From positions 1 to 34,588 of the forward strand of contig JAHJTB010000027.1 in NCBI GenBank assembly GCA_018830135.1: 34,588 nt of DNA, in the 5' to 3' direction. The notes under the pieces are model-generated. The model was given only the letters and a program-made list of their open reading frames with translations, was not told the origin of the DNA and made no database searches. Source of the DNA: Pseudomonadota bacterium (lineage in GTDB: Bacteria > Desulfobacterota > Desulfarculia > Adiutricales > JAGVGV01). Below, piece after piece: positions 1,504-18,051 of this stretch (the stretch's first letter is position 1; every line of letters starts with the position of its first letter). The position numbers and the translations under genes were made by a program.

Positions 1504-4443
1504 CTATTCGCCCAAGAGCATGTCAATCCAGGGCAGTCCTCTGCTTGGATGCGAGTTTTGGTCCATGGGATCGGTTCGCCCAACGTACTCCTGGCAGTTG
1601 GTCCAGCCGTCCCGGTCCGGGTCCGCGTCGCAGTCGTCGACCTTGGGGTCGAGCCCGTGCTGGACCTCCCAGCCGTCGGGCATGCCGTCCCCGTCCGTGT
1701 CCGCGTTTTTCGGATTCGTGCCGAGCTGGTACTCCCGGAGGCTGGTCAGTCCGTCGCCGTCCGGGTCCTCGCCGGCGTCGTTCACATTGGGGTTGAGCCC
1801 ATTGGCGATTTCCCAGCTGTCGGGCATGCCGTCCCCATCCGTATCCGGGTTATCTGCTAAAAGCAGGGTGAGGACATTCGAGAAGCCGGCGTTTGGACAC
1901 GAGGCCGTATAGTCCTGGGTCTGATCCGAACGAATATAGGTATAGGCCGCGGTTTCAGGAACAAATGTGCAATGGGGCTTCAAAGGCCGGGCGAGAAGGG
2001 ACCAGCCGGAGGGTATGGTCGCGCGATAATAGCCATTCGAGTCGGTGGTGGGGAACCAGGGCAGTCCGGCCAGGACCACGCCGGGGACCCCCCTTCCATC
2101 GGGCGTTCTCACATACCCGGATACGATCGACTGGCGGCAGGACAGGGGCCTGATGAACAGGCCGTAGGCGTCAGCCTCCTCAAAACCTGTACTCCCCAGC
2201 ACTCCCATGAACATGGCCCCGTAGTATCGACTCCCGTCAAAATGGACGATCGGCCCGACGGGAACCTTTGTGCCTTCGGTCTCGGCGATGATGATCCAGT
2301 CGCTGGCCGGAGCGAAATTCTGGTCGTAGAACCGGCCCTTGGCCGTCAGGACCGCCAGACTGCCGGAAGGCTCGGAACGCCCCGCCAGGTAATGGGTCCC
2401 GTCAAAGGCAAAAACAAAACAGCCTCCCATGCCCATCGGTCCCTCGAACAGGGTGACCCGTTGCGGAAGGACCGTGCCGTCCGGCTTGATGAGGCGGACG
2501 TATTGTCCCCAGGTATCAGCCGACAGCTGGTCCTGCAGGGTCATGACGTACCGCGTTCCGTCGAAAATGAGATAGGTCGGGTTGTCGCTCGGCAGATCGT
2601 TGCTGTCGATGACGAAATTGCTCCCGACCAGCCCACCCGTCGGACTGATAAACTGGCCGTAGCAGCTCTTGTCGCTCGTGTCTTCCACCCAGACCACCAG
2701 AAAATTCGTGCCGTCGAAAGCCAGGGACGGAAGTCGGCCCGGGGTCCCGCTGATTTTGATTTCCCCGCCGACCAGGGCTCCGGTTTGAGATATGACCTGG
2801 CCGTAGATGTACCAGGGCCCGGCGTCCGGCCCCTGGGAGACGCGCCCGTCCTGCCAGACGACCAGGTAGTTGCCCCCGCCGGCAGCGATGTTCTCTATTT
2901 CGGTCCGTTGCTCCCCGGCCGCGGTGCTGATGGGAAAAGCACTCCCCACCTTGGCCCCGGATCGATCGATCACCTGGCCGTAGATGTCGTCGTTGGGATA
3001 ATTGGCGTAGTCCGCCCAGATCATGAGGTAGTTGGTCCCGGCAAAGGCGACCTGGGGCGTGTCTCCGTTCCGGGCGACGGATATCCTCGAACCGACCAGG
3101 GTGCCGACCCGGGAAACCATTTGGGCCTGGATTTCTTTCTCGTTGGTCGTTTTCGACCGGATTCCGAAAAGGTAATTCACCCCGTCAAAAGCCGCGCTGA
3201 TGCTCTGCTCGTCTGCGGTCGTAGTTGCCACGGGGAATCGGGCATGCCTCGGCCGTTCCACGGCCACGCCGTAAACGTCCCCCTGAGACATATAGTTGGG
3301 TCCCACGTTGTCGATGACGAAACGGGACATCATGCCCACGTACTGGCAGCCGTTGAACCCCAGGAAGGGGCCGACAGGCACTTTGCCGTTCTTGGTCTCG
3401 CCAACACTGAACCAGTCCCCCTGGGGACTGAACTGGTAGTCGTAGAACCGTGCCTTGCTGGTGATGGGCGGGGCCTCCGCGCCATCGGACAGCAGGGCCA
3501 CGTAATTGGTCCCGTCAAAGCCGAGCACAAAGGCGCCATACGCGGTCTGGCCCTCATAAAGCTTGATCCGGTCGGGCCAAATGGTCCCGTCCAGGGAGAT
3601 AAAACGGACGTAGTGGGCCCAGGTGCCGGCTGAAATCTGGTCATGGACCGTAAGCACGTACCGGTTGCCGGCAAACAACAGGCGGTTTCGGGCGCCGCTG
3701 GGATAACTGTTCCCATCAATTAAAAAGTTGGAACCGGCCAGGGCCCCGGCAGCACTGATGAACTGCCCGTAATAGTCCCGGTCGTTCGTGTTTTCCACCC
3801 AGGCCACCAGATAGTTGGTCCCGTCAAAGGCCAAGGCCGGATAATGGCCGGGGGCCGAACTGATTTTGATTTCACCGCCGGTCAATTTGCCGCTTTTCGA
3901 TACCAACTGGCCGTAGACATACCACGGGCCCGTGTCCTGGTTGGTGGCCAGACGGCCGTCCGTCCAGATGACCAGGTAGTTGGCCCCGTCGAAAACCACG
4001 TTGTGAAAATCGTGCGGATTGGCCGTGGCCTTGCTGATGGGAAAAGGCGTTCCGACCTTGGCGCCGGATCGGTTGATGAACTGGCCATAGATCGTCAACA
4101 TCGGACTGCTGGCGTTGTCGCTCCAGACCATGAGGAAATTGGTCCCGTCAAAGGCGACCGCGGGCACACCGCCGGTCCGGCCGATCGATATCCTGGACCC
4201 GATAAGGGACCCCGACTGGGAAACCAGTTGGGCGGTGATGTTGTAGTTGGCCTGATCGTTTCCTTGGATGCCGACCAGGTAGTTGGTCCCGTCGAAGGCC
4301 GCGCTGTTGGAAATTTCCTCGGCGGTCCCCGTGGCGATCGGGTATTCCGTTACGGCCGGGGCGGCGCCACATTCGGTGGTTCTTACCAGGGTCACGCATA
4401 CAACAAGCGCCACGACGGATAAAAGCAGTCTCCGATACGGCAT
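1504..4443 (-). CDS. Secreted repeat protein with duplicated propeller-like region, carboxypeptidase-regulatory-like domain and calcium-binding repeats
   Basis: The predicted protein has 979 residues. The start at 4443 is chosen over an earlier in-frame ATG (4632) because MPYRRLLLSVVALVVCVTLV is a good signal peptide and an AAGGAA ribosome site sits just upstream. Residues about 30-395 and 396-767 are two tandem homologous units, each built from repeats of the type FDGTNYLVVW.D.R, suggesting a beta-propeller or similar beta fold. Residues about 768-848 (VSGYVRTPDGRGVPGVVL) resemble a carboxypeptidase-regulatory-like Ig-type domain. The C-terminus (about 866-955) holds DTDGDGMPDSWE and related DxDxDG repeats typical of thrombospondin type 3-like calcium sites. 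It has no sorting signal that I recognise. It is probably exported and calcium-stabilised, perhaps an adhesin or matrix protein; no enzymatic role is evident. Confidence 0.85.
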   Translation of the reverse strand: MPYRRLLLSVVALVVCVTLVRTTECGAAPAVTEYPIATGTAEEISNSAAFDGTNYLVGIQGNDQANYNITAQLVSQSGSLIGSRISIGRTGGVPAVAFDGTNFLMVWSDNASSPMLTIYGQFINRSGAKVGTPFPISKATANPHDFHNVVFDGANYLVIWTDGRLATNQDTGPWYVYGQLVSKSGKLTGGEIKISSAPGHYPALAFDGTNYLVAWVENTNDRDYYGQFISAAGALAGSNFLIDGNSYPSGARNRLLFAGNRYVLTVHDQISAGTWAHYVRFISLDGTIWPDRIKLYEGQTAYGAFVLGFDGTNYVALLSDGAEAPPITSKARFYDYQFSPQGDWFSVGETKNGKVPVGPFLGFNGCQYVGMMSRFVIDNVGPNYMSQGDVYGVAVERPRHARFPVATTTADEQSISAAFDGVNYLFGIRSKTTNEKEIQAQMVSRVGTLVGSRISVARNGDTPQVAFAGTNYLMIWADYANYPNDDIYGQVIDRSGAKVGSAFPISTAAGEQRTEIENIAAGGGNYLVVWQDGRVSQGPDAGPWYIYGQVISQTGALVGGEIKISGTPGRLPSLAFDGTNFLVVWVEDTSDKSCYGQFISPTGGLVGSNFVIDSNDLPSDNPTYLIFDGTRYVMTLQDQLSADTWGQYVRLIKPDGTVLPQRVTLFEGPMGMGGCFVFAFDGTHYLAGRSEPSGSLAVLTAKGRFYDQNFAPASDWIIIAETEGTKVPVGPIVHFDGSRYYGAMFMGVLGSTGFEEADAYGLFIRPLSCRQSIVSGYVRTPDGRGVPGVVLAGLPWFPTTDSNGYYRATIPSGWSLLARPLKPHCTFVPETAAYTYIRSDQTQDYTASCPNAGFSNVLTLLLADNPDTDGDGMPDSWEIANGLNPNVNDAGEDPDGDGLTSLREYQLGTNPKNADTDGDGMPDGWEVQHGLDPKVDDCDADPDRDGWTNCQEYVGRTDPMDQNSHPSRGLPWIDMLLGE

Positions 4444-5103: not shown

Positions 5104-5799
5104 CTATCCGGACAGGGAGGCAATGGTCTCGTCCATAACGGCCAGGCCGTCCTTGTGCGTTTCCAGCTTCATGGTCCGTATCAACTGCCGATCCTTGTTC
5201 AGCGACCTGGCAAAGGCCGTTGCCTCGGCCAGAAGGTCTTCCAGGGGGCAGGCCTTCATGATGATGTGATGCGCCTGGCATTCCGCCGCGGTCAGCCGAC
5301 ATCCGGTATACTGCATCTCCTCGAATTTGTACATGGGGATGGCGCGCTTGCAGAGGACCGTGAAAACCGGCCCCAGGGGCATGCCCAGGTCCACTTCCGG
5401 CAGGCAGATCCAGCCCCGATCGGAACGCATGAAACGGAAATCGTGGGCAAACGACAGAAACGCGCCCCCGGCGAAGGCGTGGCCGTTGATGGCGGCCACG
5501 GTCGGCATGGGGAAGGTCAGGACACGCCGCATCAGGCCGAACATCTCGGCCAGGAATCGATTTCTCAACCCGGCCCCCTCTTTTTCAACGGCCCCGCCCA
5601 GCCAGTCCAGATCGATGCCGTTGGACCAGACCTTTTCATGGGAGGACCGGACCACCATCACCTTGGCTTCGGGGTTGTTCTCCACCTCGTCCAGCACGCC
5701 GAGGAACGCCTCGAAAAACGGGAAGCTGAACCGGTTTTCCCCGCTGTTCATGGTCACCAAGGCCACATGGCCATCCATTTCCCCATACACCTTGTCCAT
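5104..5799 (-). CDS. Enoyl-CoA hydratase/isomerase family protein, probably delta3,delta2-enoyl-CoA isomerase type
   Basis: The 231-residue protein belongs to the crotonase superfamily. The CoA and oxyanion-hole region (VVRSSHEKVWSNGIDLDWL) is followed by NGHAFAGGAFLSFAHDFRFM and DRGWICLPEVDLGMPLGP. The glutamate that hydratases carry in the GGGCEL motif is replaced (GGAFLS), while the glutamate of LPEVDL is kept. One catalytic Glu is the pattern of delta3,delta2-enoyl-CoA isomerases, and the HDFRFMRSDRG stretch resembles eukaryotic isomerases of this group. It would shift double bonds of unsaturated acyl-CoAs during beta-oxidation in the cytoplasm. A strong ribosome site (AAAGGAGAGGGA) directly precedes the ATG. 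It is the last gene of the minus-strand block. The substrate is unknown. Confidence 0.85.
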   Translation of the reverse strand: MDKVYGEMDGHVALVTMNSGENRFSFPFFEAFLGVLDEVENNPEAKVMVVRSSHEKVWSNGIDLDWLGGAVEKEGAGLRNRFLAEMFGLMRRVLTFPMPTVAAINGHAFAGGAFLSFAHDFRFMRSDRGWICLPEVDLGMPLGPVFTVLCKRAIPMYKFEEMQYTGCRLTAAECQAHHIIMKACPLEDLLAEATAFARSLNKDRQLIRTMKLETHKDGLAVMDETIASLSG

Positions 5800-5821
5800 T
5801 CCCTCTCCTTTCCGTGCGCCA

Positions 5822-5923
5822 GGTACTCCGGCTTCGATAAACGCCGGTCCGGACCGGGAGCGCCCGCCTCCACGGACTGGCTAATCCCGATCCCGCCCCA
5901 GAGGCGCGGGTACTCCGGCTTCG
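5822..5923. repeat. 15-bp direct repeat, 87-bp period
   Basis: The 15-mer ggtactccggcttcg occurs at 5822-5836 and again at 5909-5923. The first copy lies in the spacer upstream of the enoyl-CoA isomerase gene; the second lies within the 3' end of the 4Fe-4S remnant. On the minus strand both copies can encode EAGVP, the kind of tail seen at the end of epoxyqueuosine-reductase-like proteins. The intervening 72 bp could therefore be an insertion or a slippage product in a decaying gene end. Confidence 0.55.
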
Positions 5924-6162
5924 GATGGCACGCCGGCGGCGCACAGGCCGCGGCCATGGATAAAGATATGTTCATGCCGCTTGCAGTATTTCAGGGAGTC
6001 GGCCGCCTTTCGGCAGCAGGCCTCCTTGTCGCGGCCGTTCCCGTCCGATATCGCGCCCACCGGGCACCGCCCGGCGCATTTCAAGCAGGAACCTCCCTGG
6101 CGCCGGACATATCCGGTTTCCGGTTCCCGAAAACCGATGACGCCCGATGTCCGTCTTTCATG
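5881..6162 (-). pseudogene. 3' remnant of an epoxyqueuosine-reductase-like 4Fe-4S protein
   Basis: Reading the minus strand in one frame gives GYVRRQGG, then CLKCAGRCPVGAIS, then a run ending GLCAAGVPSEAGVP and a stop. The CxxCxxxCPvGAIS and GLCxxGVPxE motifs are the second half of the double-cluster domain at the C-terminus of QueG-like reductases. No N-terminal domain is present: the frame is closed upstream by a TGA that lies within the preceding DUF169 gene, and the only ATG there (ATGA overlap with that gene) is in another frame. It therefore looks like a decayed gene end, although expression of a small Fe-S protein from a TTG or internal start cannot be excluded. A 15-bp direct repeat marks its end. 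Confidence 0.55.
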
Positions 6163-6988
6163 ATTTTTTGCGGCCCAGCTTTTCCCTCAGGGTCGGCCAG
6201 ACCGGCGGTTCAACCAGGTTGCCGAACAGGCGGTTGGCGCCCATGGTCGGAATTATATGCGGGATGCTGAAGGGGGAAGGGTCCTGCAGCTTGTTTCCCG
6301 CCAGGAACAGGTTGTTTTCCACGGCTTCCAACCGGCTTTCAGGTACGGAAAAAAGCATCTCCGTATCCTGCACGCCGGCCATGACCCGGTCTCCCATGCC
6401 CGGGGAAACGACCTGGCAGACCCCGGTCTGGAAGGTCCTGATGATGCCTTCCTTGCAGGAGCTTTCCATGCCGTTGAAGCGGCTGACGATGTTCGATCCA
6501 TCATAGGTTGCCGCCAAAATCAGGTGCGAGAGCGCCAGGGGGGAGCAGTAGATCATGACCAGGTCGGGCTTGACCACGGTCTGGTGAAGCGGCGACACCA
6601 CGAACCCTTTGAACTCGTGGGGTTCGAACCGGGCATCGTCTTCCCTTGAACGCTTTTCCGCTTCCAGGCCGCACTTGTATCCGGCATGGTCCGCCCAGGC
6701 CTGATACAGGTCGTCCGGATCGGCCAGTTCGTCCAGACCGAAATAGATGACGATCGGTTTGCAGGCGATGTCGTCTTGGGTCAGATAAAACGAGAAGCCG
6801 GTCCGGCGGCAATAGGTATAAACCAGACAGGCCGGCACTTCCGCGCCGAAAACCAATGACGGCTGCACGGCGGCGGCCGGAGGGTCTTCTTCCGGGCGTA
6901 TCATTTTTACGGCCACCGGATACGTCGTCAGCTTCAGCCGATCGATCAAGGCCTGACCGATCTGGGAATACTTCGTCAAACCGTCCAT
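6158..6988 (-). CDS. DUF169 family protein (copy 1)
   Basis: The 276-residue protein starts TKYSQIGQALIDRLKLTTYPVAVKMI, the typical opening of DUF169, a family of unknown biochemical function found mainly in archaea and anaerobic bacteria. Other family-like blocks are CLVYTYCRRTGFSF, GFVVSPLHQTVVKPDLVMIY and GMGDRVMAGVQDTEMLFSVP. Several cysteines (in ACLVYTYC, YCSPLALS, SSCKEG, GVCQVV) could bind metal or a cofactor. There is no signal peptide or membrane segment, so it is cytoplasmic. The start has a good AAGGAGATACAG ribosome site. It follows a second DUF169 gene by 115 bases in the same direction, suggesting one transcript and possibly a heteromeric complex. Confidence 0.85.
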   Translation of the reverse strand: MDGLTKYSQIGQALIDRLKLTTYPVAVKMIRPEEDPPAAAVQPSLVFGAEVPACLVYTYCRRTGFSFYLTQDDIACKPIVIYFGLDELADPDDLYQAWADHAGYKCGLEAEKRSREDDARFEPHEFKGFVVSPLHQTVVKPDLVMIYCSPLALSHLILAATYDGSNIVSRFNGMESSCKEGIIRTFQTGVCQVVSPGMGDRVMAGVQDTEMLFSVPESRLEAVENNLFLAGNKLQDPSPFSIPHIIPTMGANRLFGNLVEPPVWPTLREKLGRKKS

Positions 6989-7103
6989 CGCTCTGTATCT
7001 CCTTCTCCGTCCCGGCCGGCCGCATGGCCGGGACGGCTGGCGTTTAGAAGGTCTTGAGGTCCGCCCCTCCCGGGAGGACCGGAGGAGCGGACCGATTGAT
7101 CAA

Positions 7104-7931
7104 TCATTGACCGGTCTTGCGGCTGTCCAGCTTCTGTCTCAGAAAGTTGAAGCCCGGAGTCAGCTTGGCCTTGATCCCCCGGGGCAGCAGCGTCTTGACC
7201 GGCAGGCCCATGTTCAGGCGCCCACCGGTCTTGAACAGATTGGCCGCGGCCTCAAACACCAGCGATCCCGGCAGGCCGATGGCGATCTCATAGTCGAACA
7301 CGCCGGAAAAGGTCCGGTCCCCCGTACCCGGAATGACGATCTGCGGGACCTGGGTCAGAAACGGAATCAGCCCGCCTTTCATGCACGATTCCCCGAAGCC
7401 CCAGTAGGAGCTGGTCGGGAAATTCCGGCCCTCGTAAACCAGGGCCTGGATGATGTGGGTGATCTGCTCCCCGTTGCCGTAAATCAGGACCGTATCCGGA
7501 ACCACGACGGACTTGGGCAGGGGCGAAACGATGAACCCGGTGTATTCTTTTCTCGTATCGGCCTGCTCCCCGAACAGTCCCTTCGTGAATTCCTGGAGTC
7601 GCCGTTCCGCTTCCTCATCGCGATGCCAGCCCTGAAGGACCTGGCTTTGCAGGCGATCCTCCTCGGAGATGTCCTCCCAGCCGTGGGAGGCCGTGGCCGG
7701 GACGCAGAAGTTGTCGTCGCCGGTCATGGCCACATTCCAGCCCCAACGGCGGGCATAGGTGAAGCCCTGGCACAGGGACCATTCCTCGCCCAGGGCCGAG
7801 GGGCGCATGATTTTGTCCGCCGGTATTTCCGATACATCCTTGATGTATTTGATCGCAACCGGCATGCTCGACAGGTGGAGCCGGTCATGGAGCGCCTGCC
7901 CGGCCTGCTGAAAATCCTTCAAGTTCGACAT
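7104..7931 (-). CDS. DUF169 family protein (copy 2)
   Basis: The protein opens MSNLKDFQQAGQALHDRLHL and SSMPVAIKYI, the DUF169 signature, and shares with copy 1 the order of blocks: LCQGFTYARRWGWNVAMTGD, GFIVSPLPKSVVVPDTVLIY, SCMKGG and GTGDRTFSGVFDYEIAIGLP. I place the start at 7931 rather than at upstream in-frame ATGs because AGGAGA lies 6 bases before it, giving 275 residues. The upstream neighbour is the QueG-like 4Fe-4S protein (97-base gap). The two copies are clearly diverged, so they are unlikely to be a recent duplication. Biochemical function is unknown; the context suggests a redox-linked role. Confidence 0.85.
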   Translation of the reverse strand: MSNLKDFQQAGQALHDRLHLSSMPVAIKYIKDVSEIPADKIMRPSALGEEWSLCQGFTYARRWGWNVAMTGDDNFCVPATASHGWEDISEEDRLQSQVLQGWHRDEEAERRLQEFTKGLFGEQADTRKEYTGFIVSPLPKSVVVPDTVLIYGNGEQITHIIQALVYEGRNFPTSSYWGFGESCMKGGLIPFLTQVPQIVIPGTGDRTFSGVFDYEIAIGLPGSLVFEAAANLFKTGGRLNMGLPVKTLLPRGIKAKLTPGFNFLRQKLDSRKTGQ

Positions 7932-8027
7932 GAGCATTCTCCTGATCTTCATGGGTCATGACCATTTGGTCAAAATGGCGGCATGAGCATTATTTTCCCC
8001 GGGCCGGCCGGGCCCCGGATCGAGGCG

Positions 8028-9077
8028 TCATTTCTCATACAAGGCCCTCCGCTCCGGGCTCATGGTCGACAGCCGCCGGGCAGCCTCCTCCGGGGAGACG
8101 GCCTCCAGTGAACCGTCCTCGTTCTGGACCACGACGCCGCCGCCGGTGATCATCTTGAAACGTTCCTGGCGCACCGTCTTTTCAGGGTGGCAGAGGAACT
8201 GGCAGTGCCCGCAGGTGAACTGGAGCAGATCGCCCGGGACCAGCGGATGGTACAGGCCATAGTTGGTCTTGGGCCGCTTGACGTAAGGCTTGACCGCGTT
8301 TCTCAGAGCCCCCAGGAACTCCTCGTCCTTTTCCGGAATCGGGAACCGGGCCGGCGACCAGGTGGACCATTTCCCCGATTGATGCAGCCCGCTGAACCCG
8401 CCGCACACGTATTCACAGCGGTTGTAGGAGAGGCGCTTGGCGTACTCGAAATCCACCCCGCCCAGGGTGACCGTGCTTTTCTCATCCCCGGACATCATCC
8501 CGGAAGCGCAGGAGGCCATGCACAGGCGGCAGCCGTCGCAATAGCTGTCCTCGGCGGGCAACGGGTCCGTGGGGATCAGTTCCGCTTCGGTGACCACCGA
8601 AGCCAGGATCGTCGCCGCGCCGTATTTCGGCATGATCACGTTTCCGGACAGGCCGAAATACCCGACCCCGGACCGCACCGCCAGATAGCGATGGGAGAGC
8701 GGGGGTTTTTCATCAAAGGGCCCCCGGGGCGTGTCTTTGCGGTACACGGCGTTGGCGGATGCCGGCACCGACTTGTACCCTTTCATGTCCAGGAAGTCCG
8801 AGAGCGTTTGGGCCATACCGGAGACCATGACGTTGACCCGGCGGTTGTCATTGTTCACGGACGCCATATCCTCTTTTTTCAGGAAACGTTCGATCGCCTC
8901 CTGATCCAGGGGCAAGGCGAAGACGACGGCCGATCTGCCTTCGGGCAGAACATAGGCCAGGTCCGTGGACGGCGGCCCCCCCGCCAGCGTCTCCCGGGTC
9001 GCGATCCCGACCGCGACGGCCTCGTTGCCCCGAATCAGGTCTTTTACGAGTTCACTCATTTCTTGCGCTTTTCCCAT
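8028..9077 (-). CDS. Epoxyqueuosine-reductase-like 4Fe-4S double-cluster protein
   Basis: The 349-residue cytoplasmic protein has the layout of QueG-type corrinoid/Fe-S reductases: an N-terminal domain with RYLAVRSGVGYFGLSGNVI (about 130-148), a first cluster motif with Cys at 180, 183, 186 and 190 (YCDGCRLCMASC), an unusual extra pair C221/C225, and a second cluster motif C289, C292, C296 (TCGHCQFLCHP). Canonical QueG proteins have CP after the first motif; here it is CASG, so this is probably a paralogue with another substrate rather than the tRNA-modifying enzyme. Such stand-alone relatives are frequent in sulfate reducers and are often annotated only as 4Fe-4S proteins. The start carries a GGGAGGAAAAA ribosome site. 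It lies between the DUF1330 and DUF169 genes, all co-directional. Confidence 0.82.
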   Translation of the reverse strand: MGKAQEMSELVKDLIRGNEAVAVGIATRETLAGGPPSTDLAYVLPEGRSAVVFALPLDQEAIERFLKKEDMASVNNDNRRVNVMVSGMAQTLSDFLDMKGYKSVPASANAVYRKDTPRGPFDEKPPLSHRYLAVRSGVGYFGLSGNVIMPKYGAATILASVVTEAELIPTDPLPAEDSYCDGCRLCMASCASGMMSGDEKSTVTLGGVDFEYAKRLSYNRCEYVCGGFSGLHQSGKWSTWSPARFPIPEKDEEFLGALRNAVKPYVKRPKTNYGLYHPLVPGDLLQFTCGHCQFLCHPEKTVRQERFKMITGGGVVVQNEDGSLEAVSPEEAARRLSTMSPERRALYEK

Positions 9078-9214
9078 TTTTTCCTCCCTGTTACATCGGT
9101 CCCTGGAAACGGTTCGACCCCAGGGTTCTGTAAATCATAGCCATGGCCCGGACGGTCCGGGACGCTTCCCGCCTGGCCGCTGACATTCATCTCCAAGACG
9201 GCCTCTCGCCTCGG

Positions 9215-9574
9215 TCAGGCCGGACTGACGGCCCAGAGCCGGGAATCGACCAGCGCGTCGGTCCGATAGGGAACAGCCGCCTGGTATCCGGCGTTTCTCT
9301 GCATGTCCATGAAGGCCGCTATCGAAGGATACCAGGCCAGAAGCACCTCGTCCCAGTCCTCGTCGCCGATCACGGGCATCCGGTACCGTCCGCGGTACAT
9401 GACCCGGCCGCCGACCCCCTCGAAATGCGCCTTGGTGGCTTCGGCATATATTTCATAGGACTCCGCTCCGCCATCGGGTTTGAACTTGAGCAGGTTGACC
9501 ATGAGCACCGGCCCCTCGTCCGGCAGGCTCATCAACTGCTTGAACTGGTCCCGGGTGGGGTTGATAAAGACCAT
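9215..9574 (-). CDS. DUF1330-like small alpha/beta protein
   Basis: About 119 residues. It shows the ferredoxin-like alpha+beta barrel pattern of the DUF1330/dimeric barrel group: GPVLMVNLLKFKPDGGAESY, then AHFEGVGGRVMYRGRYRMPV, then DWDEVLLAWYPSIAAFMDMQ and a C-terminal YQAAVPYRTDALVDSRLWAV. Two ATGs are possible (9580 and 9574). I prefer 9574 because the AAGGAGG site ends 6 bases before it, whereas it abuts the first ATG. Dimeric-barrel proteins of this size often act as small enzymes or chaperones of reactive intermediates; no catalytic residue can be named here. It lies between the frameshifted ferredoxin gene and the QueG-like gene. Confidence 0.75.
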   Translation of the reverse strand: MVFINPTRDQFKQLMSLPDEGPVLMVNLLKFKPDGGAESYEIYAEATKAHFEGVGGRVMYRGRYRMPVIGDEDWDEVLLAWYPSIAAFMDMQRNAGYQAAVPYRTDALVDSRLWAVSPA

Positions 9575-9677
9575 TTTCATCCTCCTTGGCCCGGATTGAC
9601 GTCATCCGGACCGGCTTCGGTCCCTGTTTCCTGTATCGTCGGCGGACCATTCCGGGCCACGAACCGCCATGGTCGGT

Positions 9678-9689
9678 CGGTCGCGACCG
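9678..9689. repeat. 12-bp perfect palindrome within a CGCCCCTACA-type intergenic repeat
   Basis: The bases cggtcgcgaccg at 9678-9689 are a perfect palindrome and continue into cccctacaacc, a pattern common in dispersed bacterial intergenic repeats. It runs into the stop codon of the neighbouring ferredoxin-like gene, whose C-terminus appears shortened. Confidence 0.35.
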
Positions 9690-9692
9690 CCC

Positions 9693-10306
9693 CTACAACC
9701 GGTTGTTGTCCCTGGCCATGGTCATGACCAGGTCCAGGCAGGTCCCGCACAAGACGCACTCGTCGTCGGCCCGGGGCGCGAAAGCGGAAGGCAGCACCTC
9801 GGTGGGATTGTCCCAAACGGTGCGGCCCCGGACGTTCGAGCAGCCGCCGCCGCAGCACAGACACATCACGCCGAACGGGCCGGCCAGATGATTCTGGGCG
9901 GTGGGAATCAGACCGCGTTCGACCATTTCGTCGAGGTATTCGATGGCCTGCTCCTTGGTCACCGGTTTTCCCGGGCCCAGTTGTTCGAAGCGCCGGGCCG
10001 TACCCCCGCTGAAAATACAGCTCCCGATGGGGAACTTGTCCCGGTATTCGCGAACGTCCAGCTTTTCCGTCCGGGTCCGACAGGGGCAGGGCACCAGGGC
10101 CGGATTCCCGGTCCGGGCCCAACATCATCAATATCTTTGGTCCTGGTCCGCTCCCAGGCGGATGGGTCCACCGGCGTGGTGACTCGGTCCACGGACCGGA
10201 CCCAGCAGGGATACCGGCCCCTCTGGTCCCGAAAGACGTATCCCTCCGGGATGGCGGCCGGGTCCTTGAACCCGTTGTCCGCTCCGTCAAGGACGTTTCG
10301 GGTCAT
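9693..10306 (-). pseudogene. Ferredoxin-like 4Fe-4S protein, frameshifted and C-terminally short
   Basis: The start at 10306 overlaps the stop of the TetR gene as ATGA and has a GGGAGGA ribosome site. Its frame gives MTRNVLDGADNGFKDPAAIP through ERTRTKDIDDVGPG and then loses homology. From about 10120 the next frame takes over with NPALVPCPCRTRTEKLDVRE and continues to the stop at 9693. The join lies in a G/C-rich run (about 10097-10122), so a 1-base indel or sequencing error is likely. The second part shares CPCR.RTE, a cysteine cluster (MCLCCGGGC) and CVLCGTC with the gene at 1-996. It ends soon after CVLCGTC and lacks the second Cys-rich motif, so the ferredoxin domain is incomplete. Either it is a real pseudogene or the assembly has an error. 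Confidence 0.7.
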
Positions 10307-10884
10307 GCGTCCTCCCTGAATAGCCGTTCGAAGACCAGCCGGGTGAAAGGCTCGTGGGGGGCCGTGCTTTGCCTGACCTTCATCTGCATCAACACCCCTT
10401 CCCAGCCCGCGACCAGGAATTCCGCGGTTTCAGCCGGGTCGAGCGAAACCGGGATTTCACCCCTTTCCCGGGCCTGGACCAGCAGGTCGATGAGTTCCTG
10501 CTTCATGTCGTCAAAGACTTCATTCAGTTTCCGCCTGAATTCGGGGTCCCGGTCTCCCAGCTCCAGGGAGAGATTCCCGATCGGTCAGCCGCCCTTGAAC
10601 CTGGCCTTTTCAAACTGCTCCGCCTGCTGTTTGAAGCCCAGGCGGATTCTGTCCAACGGGCGGAGCGAGTCGTCATCCAGGATGCCCGCCCTCATGACCT
10701 TCAGTTTTTGGGCGATGTATCCGATCAGATGGAGCCCGAAGTCGTGCTTGCTTTTGAAATAATGATAAAAGGACCCTTTGGGGACATCGGCGGCCTTCAG
10801 AATTTCCTGGATACCCGTGTCGTTGAACCCCTTTTGATTGACGATTCTGGCCCCGGCCTTCAAGATTCGCGTCCTTGCATCCAT
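10303..10884 (-). CDS. TetR/AcrR family repressor, NemR-like, candidate selenoprotein (UGA at codon 100)
   Basis: Read through one UGA, the frame encodes 193 residues, normal for TetR. Residues 1-60 form the HTH domain (TGIQEILKAADVPKGSFYHY, FKSKHDFGLHLI). The UGA (10587-10585) falls in KARFKGG-X-PIGNLSLELGD, where the family normally has Cys (GCxxGNL); in E. coli NemR the matching Cys106 is the redox sensor. Lys169 (LMQMKV) aligns with the NemR lysine thought to bond to that Cys. A SECIS-like hairpin follows the UGA. The ribosome site GAGGTG precedes the ATG; the last codon overlaps the next gene as ATGA. A promoter with TAGAC-type palindromes lies upstream. If the UGA is a stop, the gene is a truncated 99-residue DNA-binding domain. 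The Sec reading is inference; family assignment is firm. Confidence 0.8.
10541..10581 (-). promoter_or_regulatory. Candidate bacterial SECIS hairpin after the in-frame UGA
   Basis: Starting 3 nt after the UGA on the minus strand, the RNA can fold into a lower 5-bp stem (UCGGG with CCCGA), an asymmetric internal loop, and a perfect 6-bp upper stem (UCUCCC with GGGAGA, 10571-10553) closed by a 7-nt loop UGGAGCU. The loop begins 19 nt after the UGA and has G as its second base. Known bacterial SECIS elements need a G in the first two loop positions and a UGA-to-loop distance of roughly 16-37 nt. Because it lies in coding sequence, chance folding of GC-rich codons remains possible. Confidence 0.55.
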
Positions 10885-11015
10885 CGCCGCACCTCTTTGG
10901 TTGTCGTTCAGGCCCGGCCGGACCTGGCCTGCTCCACCTTCCGTTCAGGGGGGCCTCGGGCATGAATTTCGGAGCGAATTCATCCTTGTATTTGATTGTA
11001 TTATGTTTTACAGAA

Positions 11016-11032
11016 GTAGACCGGTCGTCTAC
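11016..11032. promoter_or_regulatory. Palindromic operator 1, GTAGAC-N5-GTCTAC
   Basis: A perfect 6-bp inverted repeat around CGGTC, lying just downstream of the predicted -10 box of the TetR gene. TAGAC...GTCTA half sites match the NemR-type operator consensus (TAGACC...GGTCTA), in keeping with the NemR-like character of the adjacent regulator. It is likely an autoregulatory site. Confidence 0.65.
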
Positions 11033-11041
11033 CTCATGATC

Positions 11042-11070
11042 AGAATAGACCGCGCCTCTACCCGTGTCAA
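11042..11070 (-). promoter_or_regulatory. Sigma70-type promoter for the TetR-led block
   Basis: On the minus strand TTGACA (11070-11065) and TATTCT (11047-11042) are separated by exactly 17 bases. The -35 box is perfect and the -10 matches 4 of 6. It would start transcription about 150 bases upstream of the TetR start codon. Operator 2 fills the spacer and operator 1 lies immediately downstream, a layout expected for repression by RNA polymerase exclusion. Confidence 0.6.
11046..11060. promoter_or_regulatory. Palindromic operator 2, TAGAC-N5-CTCTA (imperfect)
   Basis: An imperfect copy of operator 1, with its centre 29 bases away (about three helical turns) and located between the -35 and -10 boxes. 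The similarity of the left half (TAGACCG in both) supports a shared binding protein. Confidence 0.5.
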
Positions 11071-16637: not shown

Positions 16638-16869
16638 TTGACCCATATTCAACCCGGATTTTCAGCTTCGAGCGGTCGCCTGAAAATCCACGCAATTGGC
16701 CCTTCCCCTCAAAAAAATATGGTGATTTTGACTTTTTTCTATCCGTATGGTACTGTCCGGCAGTCCAGGGGCCTGCGAAGGGCCGGAGGCGTCAAGGCGG
16801 CGCTCCACCGTTCGAGCAGGTCAATTATTTAATTATATTAAGATTATAAGATTTCAATCTGAATCGGTT

Positions 16870-18051
16870 ATGGCGAGCACCAACAAGCACCGGATATTGC
16901 AGGCCGCGGAAAAACTCATACCCAGGCTGGGTATCCACCGCACGACCATCGCCAAAGTGGCCCGTGAGGCGGACGTGGCCGACTCCCTGGTCTACAAATA
17001 TTTTGAAAACAAGGAGGACCTCCTGTTCTCCGTGGCCGATATCCGGCTCAGGGAGGTGCTGGCCGTACTGGACGAACAGCTGGGAGGCATCATCGACCCG
17101 GAGTCCAGGCTGCGCAAGCTCATCTGGCACACCCTGAACTATCATGACCTGCACCCGAACTACGTCAAACTCCTTTTCTTCGAATGCTGCTCCAACGCCC
17201 GGTTCTACCGTTCGCCCACCCATGGCCTGATCCGGGAGCACTCGAAAGTCACCCGAAACATCCTGGATCAGGGGGTTCAATCCGGCGTGTTTCGCTCCGA
17301 CGTGAATATGCGTCTGGTCCGGGAATTGATCTACGGCATGTTCAATATCCAGGTCATCGGCCGCCATGCGGCCAATGAAATCCAAGCCTGCATCGACGAC
17401 TTCGACGATATATTCGATCTGATACTGGCCATGATCCGCGAGAATAAAATGCGTGTCGAACCATCCCGTGAAGATCGGATTCTGCGGGCCGCGGAACAAC
17501 TTTTCGCCCGGAAGGGCTTCCACAATTCCAAGGTGGCCGATATCGCTCAACTGGCCGGAGTGGCCGAAGGTTCGCTTTACGACCTCTATAAAAACAAGGC
17601 CAATCTGCTCAACTCCATTGCCGAAAAACGATTTTCCGACCACCTCCGAAAATCCGAGGAAGCCTTCCTCCCCAATAGCGCCGCCGGTAAACTGAGGCAC
17701 CTGATGAGATATCATTATACCCTCTACATGGCCAACCCGGATTTCCTCAAGGTATCCCTGCTGGACATGCTGCTGAATCTGAATTTCTACCGGTCCAGCG
17801 CCTGGTCGACTTTCAAGGCGTATCTCGCCCGCTTCGAACACCTGGTTGAAGAGGGCCGGGAAGGCGGCGCTTTCCGGCCCGAAGTCAACCCCCGGGTCTT
17901 CAGAAACCTCTTCCTGGGCGCCTTCAGCTACATGGCCTTCCGCTGGCTTCTTTTCGAAGATAAAATGACGGACAAAATCATGGAGATCGATCAACTGATC
18001 GAAATGCTCGTCTCGTCCATCGTGGCTGATAAAATGTATGATTCTAAGTGA
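16870..18051 (+). CDS. Tandem double TetR regulator (two TetR units in one polypeptide)
   Basis: The 393-residue protein carries two complete TetR-like units. The first HTH is NKHRILQAAEKLIPRLGIHR through ADSLVYKYFENKEDLLF; the second, starting near residue 200, is EDRILRAAEQLFARKGFHNS through EGSLYDLYKNKANLLN. Each is followed by its own helical ligand-binding-like region. Most TetR proteins are single-unit homodimers, so one chain here may act as a covalent pseudo-dimer. The ATG at 16870 lacks a clear ribosome site; a longer frame opens at 16747 but begins with non-conserved sequence. It is divergent from the B12 mutase operon, which it probably controls, perhaps in response to an acyl-CoA. 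Confidence 0.88.
   Translation: MASTNKHRILQAAEKLIPRLGIHRTTIAKVAREADVADSLVYKYFENKEDLLFSVADIRLREVLAVLDEQLGGIIDPESRLRKLIWHTLNYHDLHPNYVKLLFFECCSNARFYRSPTHGLIREHSKVTRNILDQGVQSGVFRSDVNMRLVRELIYGMFNIQVIGRHAANEIQACIDDFDDIFDLILAMIRENKMRVEPSREDRILRAAEQLFARKGFHNSKVADIAQLAGVAEGSLYDLYKNKANLLNSIAEKRFSDHLRKSEEAFLPNSAAGKLRHLMRYHYTLYMANPDFLKVSLLDMLLNLNFYRSSAWSTFKAYLARFEHLVEEGREGGAFRPEVNPRVFRNLFLGAFSYMAFRWLLFEDKMTDKIMEIDQLIEMLVSSIVADKMYDSK

Follow-up and report, generated by a model that had tools for sequence, protein, structure and literature searches.

A TetR-family gene in the 34,588-nucleotide stretch of DNA analysed here (the window) carries a single in-frame TGA at the place of its family's sensor cysteine, and the best reading, which we consider probable, is that this UGA is decoded as selenocysteine in a NemR/AcuR-type repressor, a candidate for a new selenoprotein family. 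Translation gives a frame with an ATG start, preceded by GAGG 7 bases 5' of it, one inner TGA and a terminal TGA; a genome-wide change of the genetic code was set aside, as the gene itself also ends at a UGA that serves as its normal stop. The read-through protein matches TetR_N (PF00440; 48.3 bits, E 8.8e-13, cut-off 24) and TetR_C_13 (PF16925; 82.2 bits, E 4.3e-23, cut-off 27). The 99-residue fragment before the TGA retains a complete TetR_N domain, and the 93 residues 3' of it match TetR_C_13 when taken alone (61.9 bits, E 9.1e-17, cut-off 27), bearing out the description in an earlier note on this DNA of one TGA at codon 100 in an otherwise complete 193-codon TetR frame. In an AlphaFold2 model of the read-through protein, with residue 100 entered as Cys, the mean pLDDT is 94.8 and residue 100 immediately precedes a sensor-domain helix (101–109). 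Because the gene contains no Cys codon, residue 100 is the only place on which thiol-type sensing could depend. The features discussed are collected in the table.

Table. Features of the tetR locus in the window (positions are those of the whole stretch).
Feature	Position	Strand	Remarks
Same-strand genes after tetR	5104..9580	-	DUF1330, weak QueG/RDH-like, two DUF169, enoyl-CoA hydratase
Two joined gene remnants, not intact	9577..10306	-	reductive-dehalogenase-family piece, then inner part of an Fe-S protein
TetR-family (NemR/AcuR-like, TetR_C_13) repressor gene	10303..10884	-	193 codons, one inner TGA, stop TGA
Lys169 codon, equivalent of NemR Lys175	10378..10380	-	alignment to 4yze
Candidate bacterial SECIS hairpin	10553..10571	-	6-bp stem, 7-nt loop UGGAGCU, -9.1 kcal/mol
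TGA codon 100, proposed selenocysteine	10585..10587	-	place of invariant Cys (NemR Cys106)
Putative operator palindrome TAGACGACCGGTCTA	11017..11031	-	just 3' of promoter-like site
Second, imperfect copy of putative operator TAGAGGCGCGGTCTA	11046..11060	-	inside promoter-like site
Sigma-70-type promoter-like site TTGACA-17-TATTCT	11042..11070	-	consensus match only

Cysteine occupies the site of codon 100 in all 117 distinct homologues compared (the window excluded), and lysine stands at the position of the window's Lys169 in 98 of them. This set consists of the best 80 of 540 relatives in named genomes together with loci from further homologue searches, with only tblastn matches that span the site being counted, at 117 distinct DNA sites. 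In a 70-row alignment of the window, its residue entered as Cys, and 69 homologues picked from 112 long ones, six columns are invariant, C100 among them. The cysteine that the earlier note had named as normal for the family is thus confirmed, but the other half of its expectation, homologues with UGA at this codon, has no counterpart in a second genome: no further TGA appears among the matches listed for the source genome, for 395 genomes and for the closest relatives' order. Among 46 places listed for the 395 genomes, the window has TGA, one other place has TAG and 44 are free of stops, the residue at the site being read only where the locus was given, and no stop was found in the homologue in five genomes of the closest relatives' order (56–58% identity). 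Relatives are present in 845 plasmid records, each at less than 60% identity, and none of the 7 viral-contig stretches that matched a pattern encodes one. A UGA conserved in a second genome is not a strict criterion, as 3 of 9 new selenoprotein families likewise lack one according to PMC12013277.

Two homologues with stops at other places are noted here as separate observations. The homologue with TAG (L136 in genome G113, at about 1900) is of NemR/AcuR type and has its stop in frame at an unconserved place, which could be a nonsense mutation, an error or pyrrolysine; the stop in the other (L066) lies at the end of the protein and was taken as the normal one.

Conservation continues past the UGA, as both flanks of the site retain the family's sequence. 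The window protein keeps 39 of the 41 columns with at least 80% agreement in the other rows, and 1 conserved position is altered after the UGA, against a mean of 2.2 in relatives. The identity of its C-terminal half lies within 0.5 sd of that expected from the N-terminal half (rank 22 of 70 from the lowest), and third-position GC is similar on the two sides of the TGA (0.75 and 0.77). The part after the UGA is therefore as conserved as in relatives, and the downstream decay that the earlier note proposed to look for is not seen. Judged from this conservation, an old, decayed pseudogene is ruled out, and a recently broken gene fits the same data.

The source genome is a draft of 562 contigs (95.7% complete, 6.19% estimated contamination), and it encodes the selA, selB, selD and tRNA-Sec genes for which the earlier note had suggested a search. 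The tRNA-Sec scores 72.2 bits, over the Rfam cut-off, and is also called by ARAGORN with anticodon TCA (UCA); SelB and SelA each exceed their cut-offs, as does SelD, which itself has an in-frame TGA. Other UGA-containing genes of known selenoprotein families are present as well, with TGA in 4 of 40 places matched by the FdhA model (the FdhA cut-off is exceeded by 3 of them) and in 2 of 15 FlpD places; one further FdhA-model place of the 40 has TAA. The stretches with tRNA-Sec, SelB, SelA and SelD have a GC of 0.63–0.65, against 0.59 for the window, and tetranucleotide correlations to the window of 0.92–0.96, with 0.58–0.81 for four loci from other organisms; this agreement in composition makes it unlikely that the machinery stems from contamination. 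A weaker resemblance to the window is seen in one FlpD stretch (C400; GC 0.54, r 0.82). A LysR-type regulator gene adjoins the TGA-containing selD (L146, contig C290 of G000, 2493–3374), and may represent the selenium-related LysR type mentioned in PMC9312934.

Downstream of the UGA is a candidate bacterial SECIS hairpin, with 19 nt between UGA and loop. In the portion of PMC13188914 that sets out the bacterial SECIS model, the loop is 3–9 nt with a G in its first two positions, the stem 4–16 bp, the UGA-loop spacing 16–37 nt and the energy at most -7.5 kcal/mol, and the tetR hairpin lies within all of these limits, its loop beginning UGG. When the same peptide was recoded synonymously with the window's codon usage, 75 of 3000 recodings (2.5%) were as stable, and the same test on seven known UGA sites of the source genome gave 0.045 to 0.54, against 0.025 for tetR. 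Among 713 control Cys codons from part of the source genome, in mechanically chosen frames of at least 200 codons that may include false frames, 74 pass the SECIS model, 37 do so with a GG/GU loop and 20 reach -9.1 kcal/mol with such a loop. The hairpin program has limited power, as it scores uninterrupted stems only and passes 4 of the 7 known UGA sites at -7.5 kcal/mol. As a whole, the 61-nt stretch is no more stable than shuffled sequences (z 0.21; 116 of 200 equally or more stable), and an Rfam scan of 10200–11000 found nothing up to E 5. When the loop limit is relaxed, 2 of the 117 Cys homologues also reach -9.1 kcal/mol, each with a comparable stem in almost the same position; such equal hairpins, which may be a codon by-product of the motif, temper the SECIS argument. 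Support from the hairpin is real but moderate. The two Cys homologues with SECIS-like hairpins (L124 in G330 and L125 in G290) may hold a relic of a selenocysteine-containing ancestor or a by-product of coding.

The control region includes one promoter-like site, where 0.3 (sd 0.6) would be expected from shuffling, and a putative palindromic operator of the sort looked for upstream of TetR-family genes, placed 147 bases before the tetR start. Of 118 homologues (the window counted), 59 have the palindrome TAGAC-N4-6-GTC[TC]A in the 300 bases upstream; among 122 control stretches, taken 690–1000 bases upstream and with rows that may include duplicates, 6 have it. The same palindrome heads a gene cluster on another contig of the source genome, C116, which ends in a Cys-containing paralogue of the window's TetR; its presence at both places points to autorepression and to two related repressors with one operator sequence.

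The genes that follow tetR on the same strand are a possible regulon. The QueG/reductive-dehalogenase-like member scores 34 bits against cut-offs of 160–200 and has no Pfam match. An enoyl-CoA hydratase gene lies next to tetR in 4 of the 6 stretches from the closest relatives; none was seen beside tetR in the other 2, one of which ends close to tetR. At 5 other places, including one in the source genome, tetR has a hydratase of the same family as the window's for a neighbour, and some relatives have genes for an Fe-S protein, a nitronate-monooxygenase-family protein and a second hydratase near tetR (families checked in G071 and C116). Elsewhere in the window, 16747–18051 encodes a 434-residue protein with two tandem TetR units, TetR_N being matched twice. 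The arrangement is unusual, as TetR proteins normally act as dimers of single-unit chains.

Between tetR and these genes lie two joined remnants. The frame at 9959–10306 was sought in the 395 genomes and gave 2 weak matches besides its own; in the better one, residues 24–59 of the frame match a 519-codon frame of another genome with 50% identity over 36 positions, and this frame is assigned to the reductive dehalogenase family by TIGR02486 (218 bits against 160), with the piece coming from near the start of the protein. The second remnant frame matches an inner part of Fe-S proteins. A single gene with one frameshift across 9577–10306 was considered and dropped, since the two frames match different families. 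By these matches, the remnants are the main evidence of local decay and gene loss, and such decay directly 3' of tetR is the main reason why we hold the selenocysteine reading as probable and not more firmly.

The presence of the decoding machinery in the same genome, together with a UGA in the place of the sensor cysteine, suggests that this protein may be a selenium-based regulator. In the mechanism that we infer, the genome's own SelB and tRNA-Sec would decode UGA 100 as selenocysteine, directed by the downstream hairpin; the full-length protein would bind as a dimer to TAGACGACCGGTCTA at its own promoter, repressing itself and probably nearby genes; and the selenol of Sec100 would react with an oxidant or electrophile, upon which the protein would leave the DNA. 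A selenol at this place would be ionised at neutral pH and would react faster than a thiol. The hydratase-type neighbours and the likeness to AcuR suggest unsaturated, electrophilic acyl compounds as a possible inducer. An extension of this mechanism, in which we have little confidence, is that the gene acts as a selenium gauge: with selenium available a full sensor-repressor would be made, and without it translation would end at residue 99, leaving the product without its dimer and sensor domain and the operon open, with the Cys paralogue on the same operator sequence providing a second, selenium-independent setting.

The main rival to the selenocysteine reading is a recent nonsense mutation, which we regard as possible but unlikely. 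A single base change would have turned the Cys codon of an ordinary Cys-type repressor into TGA, with genes being lost from the locus, and only a 99-residue DNA-binding fragment would now be made, with the switch lost. The two truncated genes joined directly 3' of tetR fit such a history, and lend some probability to an assembly error as well; the Cys paralogue on C116, its cluster headed by the same palindrome, could cover the loss; and broken copies do occur, as with the inner TAG in 1 of the 117 homologues and the TAA in one FdhA-model place of the source genome. However, the tetR frame has 58 single-base routes to a stop, one of them at codon 100, so an evenly placed change would strike there about once in 58; the promoter-like site and putative operator are in place; and so stable and SECIS-like a hairpin arises in few of the synonymous recodings. 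As constraint is not relaxed 3' of the UGA, the mutation would also have to be recent.

A sequencing or assembly error at a true Cys codon, again implying an ordinary Cys-type repressor, has a small probability in our judgement. The draft state of the genome and its estimated contamination favour it to a degree, as does the broken reading frame next door, but that break is made up of two truncated genes from separate families and is not a lone slip, and the error would have to fall on exactly one codon. The assembly also has other in-frame TGAs in known selenoprotein families (FdhA, SelD and FrhD/FlpD in the table of PMC9312934), so TGA as selenocysteine is not foreign to it. It is very improbable that the UGA is a real or leaky stop, with either a functional 99-residue product or a little full-length protein made by ordinary read-through: the short fragment does retain its complete DNA-binding domain, but the C-terminal domain retains its conserved positions as well. 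TetR proteins dimerise via this C-terminal domain. The earlier note's selenocysteine reading thus gains from the invariant cysteine, the machinery and the intact downstream part, and is held back by the lack of a second UGA-containing genome among the listed matches.

Redox enzymes make up most of the known selenoproteins. The 87 prokaryotic selenoprotein families collected as of 2022 in Table 1 of PMC9312934 (16 verified, 71 predicted) include no TetR repressor and one putative regulatory protein, FmdB. The FmdB family and redox regulators are mentioned in the portion of the 2026 review PMC13188914 consulted here, with no TetR regulator seen there, and the words TetR, regulator and repressor do not occur in the deep-Sep main text (PMC12013277). 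No selenocysteine-containing TetR was found in the literature searched, which comprised neither subscription papers nor preprints, and a search of it for AcuR likewise brought up no relevant paper. If the reading is true, a repressor that senses through a selenol would bring selenium chemistry into direct control of transcription, and would raise the question of why a sensor of higher reactivity, or one that is easier to reset, is needed; the prokaryotic selenoproteome would also gain a family whose members gene finders would mistake for truncated TetR proteins.

Among solved structures, 3bru and 4yze come nearest, both in sequence and in predicted fold. The closest is 3bru, a Rhodobacter sphaeroides TetR protein (TM 0.91, 37% identity) with a GC-xxGNL motif. 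The second, 4yze, is E. coli NemR in its Cys106-only form, as described in an excerpt of the Hypocrates paper (PMC8748444), and shares the TetR fold with the model of the window protein at TM 0.86–0.89. The aligned part of 4yze has a single Cys, which stands opposite codon 100, and Cys106 and Lys175 of NemR align with codon 100 and Lys169 at the same offset, which upholds the earlier note's equation of codon 100 with Cys106. Its further proposal of Lys169 as a bonding partner stands as to the presence and alignment of the lysine, but the bonding link is weaker: in the excerpt of PMC8748444 on Hypocrates, a NemR-based sensor, the matching lysine is replaceable and a Cys-Lys bond was not seen, so that a lysine partner may be optional here.

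The two proteins differ in their complement of cysteines. According to excerpts of PMC7464077 and PMC5297802, E. coli NemR leaves its operator when Cys106 meets reactive chlorine species or when Cys21 and Cys116 meet electrophiles; the latter source gives six cysteines and states that the electrophile response requires Cys21 and Cys116. The window gene has none of the six, and has UGA at the place of Cys106, which would supply a selenocysteine equivalent only if decoded; of these sensing residues it thus keeps the lysine and lacks counterparts of Cys21 and Cys116. No nemA- or gloA-like gene is found among the same-strand neighbours scanned. The best named NCBI model is that of the acrylate regulator AcuR (NF051457; E 2.4e-43), and the window protein, with UGA for the Cys, falls below its cut-off (147.8 against 247 bits); no acrylate genes were recognised among the neighbours scanned. 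The designation as a NemR/TetR repressor therefore holds for the TetR fold and domains and for the NemR-type site, but the protein is no strict NemR orthologue.

The Cys paralogue on C116 (L021/L179) is 49% identical to the window TetR and has Cys for the UGA. Its cluster has the palindrome at its head, about 2.9 kb before the paralogue, and the enoyl-CoA hydratase adjoining the paralogue is 57% identical to that of the window; unlike the window, the cluster includes a full-length Fe-S protein gene and a nitronate-monooxygenase-family gene. The same contig (L179, G000) also carries a CRISPR-like array at 431–1800, with 23 repeat copies mostly at 61-base spacing, running to the end of the scanned part.

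An in-frame stop in a TetR-type gene is shared with Methanosarcina MA2902, a TetR-like gene with an amber codon; there the codon is UAG, the candidate residue pyrrolysine and the host an archaeon, and in an excerpt of PMC1914089 the recoded residue is presented as possible and the pyrrolysine content called unclear by the authors. With the known prokaryotic selenoproteins (FdhA, SelD, FrhD/FlpD and others), the window tetR shares a UGA in the place of Cys, a downstream hairpin, and a genome that encodes SelA, SelB, SelD and tRNA-Sec.
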